From Desulfurivibrio dismutans (GTDB lineage Bacteria > Desulfobacterota > Desulfobulbia > Desulfobulbales > Desulfurivibrionaceae), in the NCBI RefSeq assembly GCF_029210385.1, contig NZ_JARGDQ010000006.1:124001-188000 (forward strand): 64,000 nt of DNA. Reading direction: 5' to 3'. Below, piece after piece: positions 7,647 to 49,312 of the stretch; within the stretch, counting starts at the first letter, position 1; each line of letters begins with the position of its first letter. A program made the position numbers and the translations under genes. The notes below the pieces were generated by a model that saw only the letters and a program-made list of their open reading frames with translations, made no database searches and had not been told where the DNA came from.

Positions 7647-7692
7647 GCGCCCGTCCATGGGCGCAATGATGACTTATTGCGAAGTCATCATT
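7647..7692. repeat. Two adjacent hairpins after rlmN
   Basis: A perfect 11-bp inverted repeat (AATGATGACTT/AAGTCATCATT, six-base loop) at 7665-7692 includes the rlmN stop codon. It is followed on the minus strand by a 6-bp GC stem (GCGCCC/GGGCGC, 7647-7664). The first resembles the hairpin at 6473-6496. The pair sits in the rlmN-cobT gap and could terminate, attenuate or protect the rlmN transcript. Confidence 0.6.
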
Positions 7693-8956
7693 TTTCAATA
7701 TCGTTATTCATCTCATCATCGACCACTGCCAGGCTGGCTTTGGCCGCTAACTGACCGCAGGCGGCGGAAATATCGCTCCCCCGGCTCTGGCGCAGCAGGG
7801 TGGTGTGGCCGGCTTTACGCAGGATTTGCCGGAAATTTTCCACCGTTTCTTCATCGGGGCGGCGGTAGGGGAAATCGGGGTTTTCCGGGTTTTCTTGGCT
7901 TTTCCGACTCTCCGGGCCTTCATTATAAGGCAGGATGTTGATCTTGCAGCGGATGCCGTGCAGTTTCTTGACCAGCAGCCGGGCCTGGGCGGCGGAATCG
8001 TTGAGGTCCTTGATCAGCACGTATTCGATCATGATTCGGCGTCGCGGCGGCAGGGGGTATTCCCGACAGGCCCGCAGCAGTTGATCCAGGGGGTATTTTT
8101 TGTTGATCGGCATCAACCTCTCGCGGATGGCATCGTCGGCGGCGTGCAGGGAGACCGCCAGGTTCACCGGTACCTGCTCCCCCATCTCCCGCATTTTCGG
8201 CACGATCCCGCAGGTGGAAACGGTGATCCGGCGGCCGGAAAAATCGTGGCCCCGCTGTTCCATCAGGATCTTGATGGCTCGGATCAGGTGGTCGAAATTG
8301 AGCAGCGGTTCCCCCATACCCATGAAGACCAGGTTGCTGATCCGGCTTTTTTCCGGTAACTGATCACGGTGTCGACGGGGTAAGCGGTCACGGGGTGCCG
8401 CAGGTTGCGGCAAGCGAGACGGTAAAGCGTACATCAGTACGTGAGCCGGCTCGATCGCCGCAAGATGCGGTGCCCCGTGATCGCTTACTTTTTCCGGGAT
8501 CGCCCCGGGGCGGGCCAGCAGCCAGCGCCAGGCGGCGTCCACCTGGCCGATGATCTCCGCCACCGTCAGGTTGCGCTTGAACCCCATGGTGCCGGTGAGG
8601 CAGAAACGGCAACCCATGGCGCAGCCCACCTGCGAGGAAACGCACAAGGTATAACGCTCATCTTCCGGAATCAGCACGCTTTCAATCACCTGGCCATCAT
8701 GCAGGGTGAAGGCGAACTTGACCGTGCCGTCGCGTGAGTGTTCCACCTTGGACGGTTCCAGCCGGCTGAGCATGGCCTTTTCGGCCAGCAGTCCCCGGAC
8801 ATGCTTGGCGATGTCGGTCATCGCCATGAAATCGGTGAAATCCGGCCGTTGAATCCAGGCGAAGATCTGGTTGGCCCGAAAGGGCTTGAGATCCAAGGAC
8901 TCCACCCAGGCGGTAAGTTCCGGCAGGGTCAGGTTTTTAAGATCGATTTTTTCCAC
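7688..8956 (-). CDS. rlmN: Dual-specificity RNA methyltransferase RlmN with an in-frame ~47-residue insertion
   Basis: 422 residues, longer than the usual 340-380. RlmN is a radical SAM enzyme that makes 2-methyladenosine in 23S rRNA (A2503) and some tRNAs. The cluster motif is CAMGCRFC near residue 118, and MGMGEPLLNFDHL follows. Between the helix ending LLARPGAIPEK and SRISNLVFMGMGEP the protein carries an extra Pro/Arg/Ala-rich stretch coded by a palindromic repeat (8381-8487). The extra segment ends LPEK, echoing the IPEK before it. The frame stays open, and the catalytic parts on both sides look intact. GTG start; GGGGAA lies upstream. Confidence 0.93.
   Translation of the reverse strand: MEKIDLKNLTLPELTAWVESLDLKPFRANQIFAWIQRPDFTDFMAMTDIAKHVRGLLAEKAMLSRLEPSKVEHSRDGTVKFAFTLHDGQVIESVLIPEDERYTLCVSSQVGCAMGCRFCLTGTMGFKRNLTVAEIIGQVDAAWRWLLARPGAIPEKVSDHGAPHLAAIEPAHVLMYALPSRLPQPAAPRDRLPRRHRDQLPEKSRISNLVFMGMGEPLLNFDHLIRAIKILMEQRGHDFSGRRITVSTCGIVPKMREMGEQVPVNLAVSLHAADDAIRERLMPINKKYPLDQLLRACREYPLPPRRRIMIEYVLIKDLNDSAAQARLLVKKLHGIRCKINILPYNEGPESRKSQENPENPDFPYRRPDEETVENFRQILRKAGHTTLLRQSRGSDISAACGQLAAKASLAVVDDEMNNDIEK
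8381..8487. repeat. Palindromic element copy A, inside rlmN
   Basis: 107 bases forming a near-perfect hairpin: outer arms of about 31 bases starting TAAGCGGTCACGGGGTGCCG, inner arms ending GCGTAC and GTACGTGAGC, and a four-base loop ATCA. It shares core sequence (TGCCGCAG..GCGGCAAGC and GATCGCCGCAA) with five other copies in the window. Flanks share TTTTTCCGG at 8348-8356 and 8489-8497, spaced 141 bases, which is exactly 47 codons. This looks like a target duplication around an in-frame insertion. Confidence 0.85.
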
Positions 8957-14550: not shown

Positions 14551-14657
14551 GGATCACCCAGCAGCACCCCATCTTGCGGCGATCAGGTCGGCTTGAGTAC
14601 CTGATGTAAGCTACGCCGACTTGGCTTACCGCAACCTGTGGCACTACTGAACAGTTA
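14551..14657. repeat. Palindromic element copy B, recJ-purB gap
   Basis: Long imperfect palindrome centred near 14602. The left arm contains CAGCAGCACCCCATCTTGCG, and the right arm contains CCGCAACCTGTGGCACTACTG; the centre is GAGTAC-CTGAT-GTAAGC. The core matches the other copies, but more mismatches between arms suggest that it is an older or decaying copy. Confidence 0.7.
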
Positions 14658-36193: not shown

Positions 36194-37063
36194 ATGGAAA
36201 GAGACAGCCAAAACCACGGTTTGTTCAAAAATCCCGACCTGCATCACAGCCTGCGCACCTTTTTGGCTGAAGACCTGGGCCGGGGAGACATCACCGGAGA
36301 GGCGATTTTTCCCCCGAAAGCAATCGGCAACGCCGTGTTCATCGCCAAGGAGGCAATGGTATTGGCCGGGGTGGAACATTTGGCGCCGTTGGTTTTTCGA
36401 ATGATCAACCGGGAAATCACCTGCCACCCCACCGCCGACGGCCAATGGGTTAAGTCGGGAGAAATCATCCTGCATCTACATGGTCCGCTGCGGGATCTGC
36501 TGGCCGGTGAGCGGCTGGCCCTGAACCTGGCCCAGCGGCTGAGCGGTATTGCCACCCTCACCGCCGAGTTTGTCGCCGCCGTGGCCGCCTGGCCGGTAAA
36601 GATCATGGACACCCGCAAGACCACCCCCGGCCTGCGACGGCTGGAAAAATACGCCGTGCACGTGGGCGGCGGGGTCAACCACCGCTATAATCTCAACGAC
36701 GGGATTTTGATCAAGGATAACCATATCGCGGCCGCCGGCTCCATCCGCCAGGCAGTGCAAAAAGTACGGGATTACAACGGGCCGGGCAAGGAGGTTGAGG
36801 TGGAATGTGAAACCCTGGAACAGGTGACCGAGGCCCTGGCCGCCAAGGCGGAGATCATCATGCTGGACAACATGGACCCGCCGATGATGCGCCGGGCGGT
36901 GGAGTTGATCAACGGCCGAGCAATCACCGAGGCCTCGGGCGGGGTGACGCTGAACAACGTTGGGGAAATCGCCGCCTGCGGGGTGGACCGCATTTCCATC
37001 GGCGCCCTCACCCACTCAGCACCGGCCAAAGACATCAGCATGGAAATGGTCAGCGGGCAGTAG
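36194..37063 (+). CDS. nadC: Nicotinate-nucleotide pyrophosphorylase (quinolinate phosphoribosyltransferase)
   Basis: 289 residues from ATG 36194; an open frame to 36092 exists but crosses the dispersed repeat and is not counted. NadC turns quinolinate and PRPP into nicotinate mononucleotide in de novo NAD synthesis. Signature text: AEDLGRGDITGEAIF near residue 20, LAQRLSGIATLTAEFV, MDTRKTTPGLRRLEKYAV near residue 137, NHRYNLNDGILIKDNHI near residue 158 and SIGALTHSAPAKDISMEM at the end. The last codons (VSGQ) and stop lie within palindromic copy C. No nadA or nadB is adjacent. Confidence 0.97.
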   Translation: MERDSQNHGLFKNPDLHHSLRTFLAEDLGRGDITGEAIFPPKAIGNAVFIAKEAMVLAGVEHLAPLVFRMINREITCHPTADGQWVKSGEIILHLHGPLRDLLAGERLALNLAQRLSGIATLTAEFVAAVAAWPVKIMDTRKTTPGLRRLEKYAVHVGGGVNHRYNLNDGILIKDNHIAAAGSIRQAVQKVRDYNGPGKEVEVECETLEQVTEALAAKAEIIMLDNMDPPMMRRAVELINGRAITEASGGVTLNNVGEIAACGVDRISIGALTHSAPAKDISMEMVSGQ

Positions 37064-37155
37064 CACCGCTGCTTGCGGCGATCAGCCCGGCTTGCGTACT
37101 GATGTACGCGGCGCCGGTCTGCTTGCCGCAATCTGCGGCACTACTGCCCGCTGAC
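37049..37155. repeat. Palindromic element copy C, end of nadC
   Basis: 107 bases. Outer arms of 15 bases are perfect (GTCAGCGGGCAGTAG and its complement); inner arms carry the family core, with GCGTAC-TGAT-GTACGC at the centre. The left arm codes the last four residues and stop codon of nadC. The right arm ends 88 bases before the convergent mvhD stop, so the element may act as a two-way transcript end. Confidence 0.88.
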
Positions 37156-41049: not shown

Positions 41050-41159
41050 GCTAACTGCCCAGTAGTGCCGCAGGTTGCGGCAAGCGGCCCGGCGAAGCGT
41101 GCCCCAGGCACGTGAGCTGGGCCGATCGCCGCAACATGTGATGCTAATGGGCAGTTAGC
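41050..41159. repeat. Palindromic element copy D, fdhA-hdrA junction
   Basis: 110 bases. Outer arms GCTAACTGCCCAGTAG and the complement of GCTAACTGCCCATTAG differ by one base. The inner arms carry GCGGCAAGC..GGCCCGGC and GGGCCGATCGCCGC. The right arm codes the last residues (LTAH) and stop of the formate dehydrogenase. It lies 77 bases before the hdrA start in the direction of transcription. Confidence 0.87.
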
Positions 41160-45351: not shown

Positions 45352-45459
45352 GTAAATGTTCAGCAGTGCTGCAGATTCGGGCAAGCGGTCCGGCGCCGCG
45401 TACCCCAGGTACGCAAGCCGGGCCGATCGCCCGAAGATGCGGTACTGCTGGACATTTAC
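45352..45459. repeat. Palindromic element copy E, acsC-fdhA junction
   Basis: 108 bases. Outer arms GTAAATGTTCAGCAGT and the complement of GTAAATGTCCAGCAGT; core with CGGCGCCGCGTACC and GGTACGCAAGCCGGGCCGAT. The arm abuts the acsC stop codon (TAG at 45459-45461). The fdhA start lies upstream of acsC's far side, 89 bases beyond the element's other end. Confidence 0.87.
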
Positions 45460-49208: not shown

Positions 49209-49312
49209 GTAAACGTGCAGCCGTGCCGCATCTTCGGGCAAGCAGCCAGGTGCCGCGTACACCCTGTACGCAAGCCTGGCCGCCCGAAGATGCGGCGCTG
49301 CTGAACGTTTAC
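49209..49312. repeat. Palindromic element copy F, acsD-acsB junction
   Basis: 104 bases. Outer arms GTAAACGTGCAGCCGTGCCG and the complement of GTAAACGTTCAGCAGCGCCG. The inner arms CATCTTCGGGC...AGCC and the central GCGTAC-ACCCT-GTACGC complete the hairpin. It begins two bases after the metF-acsD stop and ends 79 bases before the acsB start. Confidence 0.88.

Follow-up and report, generated by a model that had tools for sequence, protein, structure and literature searches.

The rlmN gene of Desulfurivibrio dismutans, a free-living soda-lake sulfur bacterium, carries a 133-bp palindromic element inside its open frame, and I consider it likely that this element is an IS66-type MITE which a transposase acting in trans inserted there in frame, with the enzyme most likely still working. 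The palindrome would be non-autonomous, its joining into rlmN would have duplicated 8 bp of target, and the 133 bp, the duplication and one stop-free frame per orientation would together add exactly 47 codons and leave the gene open. The insertion point would fall in an RlmN loop whose length varies among species, so that the enzyme would tolerate a disordered loop of about 47 residues; other genes would have been entered in frame likewise, and insertions that disrupted a required gene have presumably disappeared. Protein-coding palindromic MITEs are a kind already known, to which the Desulfurivibrio element is a new addition, and in the open-licence literature, of which coverage was partial, I came across no description of them from this lineage. 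Intracellular Rickettsia are the best-known case of palindromes lying in frame within many genes. Here the same occurs in free-living bacteria, where the insertion scars are clean, a complete genome from the same genus shows empty sites, one copy is present in two species and a related class of elements sits at stop codons.

The insertion in rlmN and its empty site

The window, meaning the whole stretch of 64,000 nucleotides that was analysed, contains the gene, the element and its parts at the positions collected in Table 1. Read on the minus strand, rlmN gives a product of 422 residues with zero internal stops, which scores 385 bits against NCBIfam TIGR00048 (cut-off 290). The 133-bp element within it (GTAACTGATC...GATCGCTTAC) folds as a single strand, under DNA parameters, at -50.9 kcal/mol versus -25.9 (sd 2.67) in 200 shuffles, none of which folded equally well (z -9.4), and the proposal of the initial annotation that a palindrome lies in frame within rlmN is thereby borne out. 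Its count of 47 added codons is also right, since the 133-bp element and the 8-bp duplication sum to 141 bases, or 47 codons, and rlmN therefore stays open. The 9-base direct repeat that it described, TTTTTCCGG, 141 bases apart, has to be trimmed to the 8-mer TTTTTCCG, the ninth base being one chance G, and the IPEK/LPEK echo that it pointed out is this target duplication read as protein. A default repeat search of positions 8200-8650 reported zero repeats; it is blind to the direct repeat because this is shorter than the 12-base minimum and, in my own reading, to the imperfect arms because their exact words reach at most 8 bases and the seed is 9. Similarly, Rfam returned no family in the window at gathering score.

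Table 1. Positions of rlmN, the inserted element, its parts and the target duplication in the window
Feature	Positions	Strand	Basis or remark
rlmN, dual-specificity RNA methyltransferase	7688..8956	-	422 codons including the insert; frame open
Target duplication TTTTTCCG, 8 bp, first copy	8348..8355	.	sequence
Palindromic element, 133 bp, probable IS66-type MITE, class A	8356..8488	.	genome copies, fold z -9.4
Outer left arm GTAACTGATCACGG...	8356..8379	+	second partner for the right arm; absent from 109-bp copies
Inner left arm GTAAGCGGTCACGGG	8380..8394	+	sequence
Core, 79 bp, common to the sister class	8395..8473	+	copy comparison
Right arm	8474..8488	+	from the end inwards reads GTAAGCGATCACGGG
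Target duplication TTTTTCCG, 8 bp, second copy	8489..8496	.	sequence

The genome that holds the window (G000; 2,838,417 bases in 33 contigs) was compared with a same-genus genome (G002; one contig of 3,097,763 bases), which is very probably that of Desulfurivibrio alkaliphilus. The rlmN of G002 lacks the insert and shows no length change beyond the 141 bases, reading ARPGAT-GEKTRINN where the window reads ARPGA-IPEK-[insert]-LPEK-SRISN (the gap in the DNA alignment was placed by the aligner), and this empty site, together with the 8-bp duplications found across copies, upholds the suggestion that the duplication was made on insertion. RlmN was matched in 57 of the 58 genomes searched, G000 included, and a search of genome contigs gave 80 loci, the best 52% identical, with no near named relative among them; of the 30 RlmN fetched, the window's is the only one with the element. 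By these comparisons the rlmN insertion appears to be a recent, species-specific event. Outside the insert, 71 synonymous and 18 non-synonymous single-change codons separate G000 from G002, a synonymous excess that points to purifying selection, mostly from before the insertion.

Copies of the element, a sister class and the probable mover

The insert matches at least 45 places in G000 (40 of the 194 candidates were scored) and is matched in 28 of the 58 genomes, G000 included; in addition, a 16-base end motif occurs 110 times in G000 with up to 2 mismatches, against zero for a reversed-pattern control. Thirty-six copies were delimited in G000, mostly 132-136, 109, 73-76 or 49 bp long, the shorter ones being without the outer arm, the core or both. 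In nine of the 36 the 8-bp duplication is exact, and in a further four it agrees at seven positions of eight, so that 13 of 36 reach 7-8 of 8, compared with 5 of 1260 mismatched left/right pairs; exact duplications at the other lengths tried (4-7 and 9-11) were found at none of the 36. Nineteen copies match at four or fewer of the eight positions, and three at five or six or otherwise between; the low-duplication copies (four or fewer) include those inside cbiD, rarA, nspC, dapF, rsmE and nifB and may, given that poor match, be old or have arrived otherwise. With gene borders taken from my own codon-usage caller, the 13 copies with good duplications divide into three in frame inside genes (rlmN, cbiE-T and hypF), one with an apparent C-terminal truncation (L168), one at a gene end (L004), two near gene starts (L175 and L166) and six that look intergenic to this rough caller. 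The consensus has one stop-free frame per orientation, and length plus duplication is frame-keeping in 29 of the 36 delimited copies. An in-frame length was considered as proof of adaptation and dropped, as the copies fall into a few inherited length classes, with several 109-bp spans being without the outer arm.

IS66 elements have terminal repeats that start GTAAGCG and a target duplication of 8 bp (PMC11946415). The element agrees in the duplication, which is exact in the window and recurs among the copies in the numbers given above; of its termini, the right one (GTAAGCGATCACGGGG) starts GTAAGCG and the outer left one (GTAACTGATCACGG) reads GTAACTG. Unlike an IS66-family insertion sequence, it carries no coding genes, and none of the 30 IS66 loci examined, many of which may not reach both ends, shows a complete element with these termini. 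The one IS66 match in G000 has ends (GTAAGCGCTCA) that agree with the element in GTAAGCG and TCA only, and because the two are similar and not identical, the call of a non-autonomous IS66-type MITE is put at probable, with an IS66 transposase as its putative helper. This sole IS66 copy (L080, contig C3) lies inside a gene whose start repeats on both sides, with the same peptide before and after it, and no 8-bp duplication was found at its flanks.

A sister class has the same 79-bp core between other arms (GTAAACG..CAGCA). In 400 kb of G002, where 31 core rows give 30 copies once a doubly listed place is counted once and gene borders again come from my codon-usage caller, the stop codon of an opposite-strand gene lies within 16 bases of the right end in 21 of the 30 core-bearing copies, and a stop codon faces the left end at such a distance in none of the 30; three copies in this set are classed nearer class A. 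Across 46 copies (class A having been left out, as were cores below 70 bits or close to the end of a locus), the two arms of a copy are complementary at 12.5 of 14 positions, compared with 8.9 when an arm is set against the partners of other copies, and therefore covary. Their flanks match at no more than five of eight positions in any copy at five offsets, so that the sister class is without a target duplication. The window has five sister-class cores (14564-14644, 37063-37141, 41065-41144, 45366-45445 and 49223-49302), and three or four of these copies abut the stop codon of a gene, for which the GTAA end can supply the TAA. The six core copies of the window have zero clear same-place counterparts in syntenic G002, and the gap near the core at 37063 has, in G002, a copy on the opposite strand at its other end. 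Outside the left arm, many of the G002 sister copies have a further sequence in common, GTACTAAC..CCGGT..TAACGGGCC, some 26 bp long (L210, L211, L213, L214, L215, L218 and L220). Integron attC sites, an idea raised by sister copies following stop codons, were set aside, since the ends do not fit the attC consensus.

Among known repeats, the GTAG/CGTC REPs are described as palindromes of 20-40 bp near the 3' ends of genes, whose GTAG end lends a TAG stop codon and some of which lie inside open reading frames, those of tRNA synthetases among them (PMC3733652). The sister class resembles them in lending TAA from its GTAA end; however, the elements here are about 110-133 bp long, end in GTAA and not GTAG, and in class A have target duplications. 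It is improbable that the element is itself of REP type, with a Y1 (RAYT) transposase and not an IS66-type enzyme as its mover: the sister class is REP-like, without target duplication and beside stop codons, and G000 has three PF01797 matches, but Y1 enzymes are not known to leave 8-bp duplications such as those of class A, the tag of the element is GTAA and not GTAG, and none of the ten Y1 loci examined has a core copy (best E 0.16).

The RlmN loop and other genes entered in frame

From 96 RlmN relatives prepared, 65 were aligned with the window's RlmN to give 66 sequences, and the loop figures come from 51 of these, the other 15 being outside the loop pattern and left out. The loop that was hit has a median of 16 residues, 68 in the window's RlmN and 37 in the next longest, which belongs to a Nitrospirae MAG (L102, gene 761-1789) and contains an unrelated GC-rich palindrome (a 150-base stretch, -72.7 kcal/mol). 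The initial annotation had named, as evidence against it, an unrelated insert at this position in relatives from other lineages. This Nitrospirae genome does have one, but the insertion is not undone by it; a different palindrome in that loop indicates instead that the loop is permissive and has been entered twice. An AlphaFold2 model of RlmN (mean pLDDT 87.6, pTM 0.86) has a confident body on which the insert lies mostly below 50 pLDDT, residues 163-191 included, and its top fold match is E. coli RlmN (3rfa; Z 45.3, rmsd 2.9 over 356 residues), so that, by predicted structure, the surface loop made of repeat that had been foreseen agrees with the model. Since the length of this loop differs between species, RlmN would most likely fold and remain active with about 47 disordered residues in it. 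Furthermore, C105, C112, C116, C119 and C400, which I take to be radical-SAM cluster ligands or catalytic cysteines, are invariant in all 66 sequences.

With its open frame and these invariant cysteines, rlmN bears no sign of being a pseudogene, the other finding that had been named as adverse. It could be argued that the element landed in an unneeded gene, that rlmN is decaying into a pseudogene and that its open frame is luck. In favour of this, a third of the orientation-and-phase combinations preserve the frame by chance, the insert appears recent and species-specific, and RlmN is non-essential in E. coli. It is nevertheless unlikely, as rlmN has neither a stop nor a frameshift and keeps every invariant residue, the remainder of the gene seems to have been under purifying selection, albeit mostly before the insertion, and elements also entered genes whose function is required, ileS and valS for instance.

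A working RlmN is the reading preferred here. In all, 16 genes contain an element within an open frame, and 13 of these score above the curated NCBIfam cut-off. In ten, the element lies within the conserved protein (rlmN, cbiD, ileS, hypF, dapF, a RarA-like ATPase, nspC, rsmE, cbiE-T and valS), and in six it lies between the start codon and the conserved domain (nifB, the alpha subunit of a 2-oxoacid:acceptor oxidoreductase, cobQ, rsmB, glgA and cbiA). A later start is harder to exclude for those six; in cobQ, the N-terminus conserved in G002 is upstream of the element. The RarA-like ATPase, rsmB and glgA score below the curated cut-offs of their matched models, the glgA frame being cut by the locus end, and paaK and cbiF were left uncounted as carriers, with the element at or before the likely start. 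The window element matches all 16 sites in DNA, most weakly in valS and glgA, and some of the element-peptide matches are weak (valS E 0.43, glgA E 0.05, cbiA E 0.009); the one in ileS is a sister-type element. Empty sites are found in G002 for rlmN, cbiE-T and cobQ, and in cbiD G002 has an element at the same place and in frame, a copy common to both species. Further copies stand in long open frames in G001, G002 and G013, and the insert peptide had no match at E 0.001 in G003 and G004.

The cbiD copy is 92.6% identical in DNA between the two species versus 82.9% for the rest of the gene. Of the single changes in its codons, 1 is synonymous and 5 are non-synonymous, compared with 77 and 45 in the remainder of cbiD; on these small numbers the copy looks to be kept as DNA rather than as protein. 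That the inserts are kept for host use, as a regulatory hairpin in the mRNA or a functional peptide loop, is very improbable, because although this shared and conserved copy and the covarying arms of the sister class would suit it, the cbiD codon changes speak against a kept peptide, exchange between copies could explain the likeness of the DNA, the rlmN copy is absent from G002 and the genes hit are unrelated.

A mobile element tolerated within coding sequence, which is the reading preferred here, has parallels elsewhere. Rickettsia palindromic elements are described as palindromes of about 100-150 bp lying in frame in many unrelated genes (PMC10969869). The Desulfurivibrio element is like them in its in-frame insertion into unrelated protein-coding genes, 16 here, and unlike them in belonging to another phylum and a free-living host and in having an 8-bp target duplication and IS66-like ends. 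The comparison drawn by the initial annotation is thus supported as a likeness in kind, by which the element may be said to work as those of Rickettsia do, and homology is no part of the claim. Similarly, the enterobacterial RU-1 to RU-3 are reported as MITE-like repeats with open frames inside annotated genes (PMC2759123), and the elements here can be likened by description to those repeats, which were named from enterobacteria. A wider and more tentative thought, which I regard as possible but somewhat doubtful, is that a coding-compatible mobile palindrome decorates a sizeable share of the housekeeping proteome throughout the lineage, two aminoacyl-tRNA synthetases and three rRNA methyltransferases included, its loops of about 16-47 residues being translated and tolerated. 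A proteome of what is probably this strain has been reported, with 1,864 of 2,491 predicted proteins identified (PMC12142623), and the translation of mobile-element peptides inside enzymes is therefore testable on existing spectra; predicted tryptic peptides lie within the inserts of RlmN (VSDHGAPHLAAIEPAHVLMYALPSR) and IleRS (GSSVPQVAASGPAPR).

Two minor observations concern the surroundings of the elements. A second short palindrome, GGGGACAGATTT..AAATCTGTCCCC or alike, occurs beside or nested in elements (upstream of the ileS element at L038, and at L179, L294 and L213) and lies in frame within ileS and cbiA. On contig C1 of G000, at 9.6-19.2 kb (L003, L010, L011 and L294), a stretch of about 10 kb contains the cobalamin-pathway genes cobQ, cbiF, cbiE-T, cbiD and cbiA, each with an element inside or next to it.
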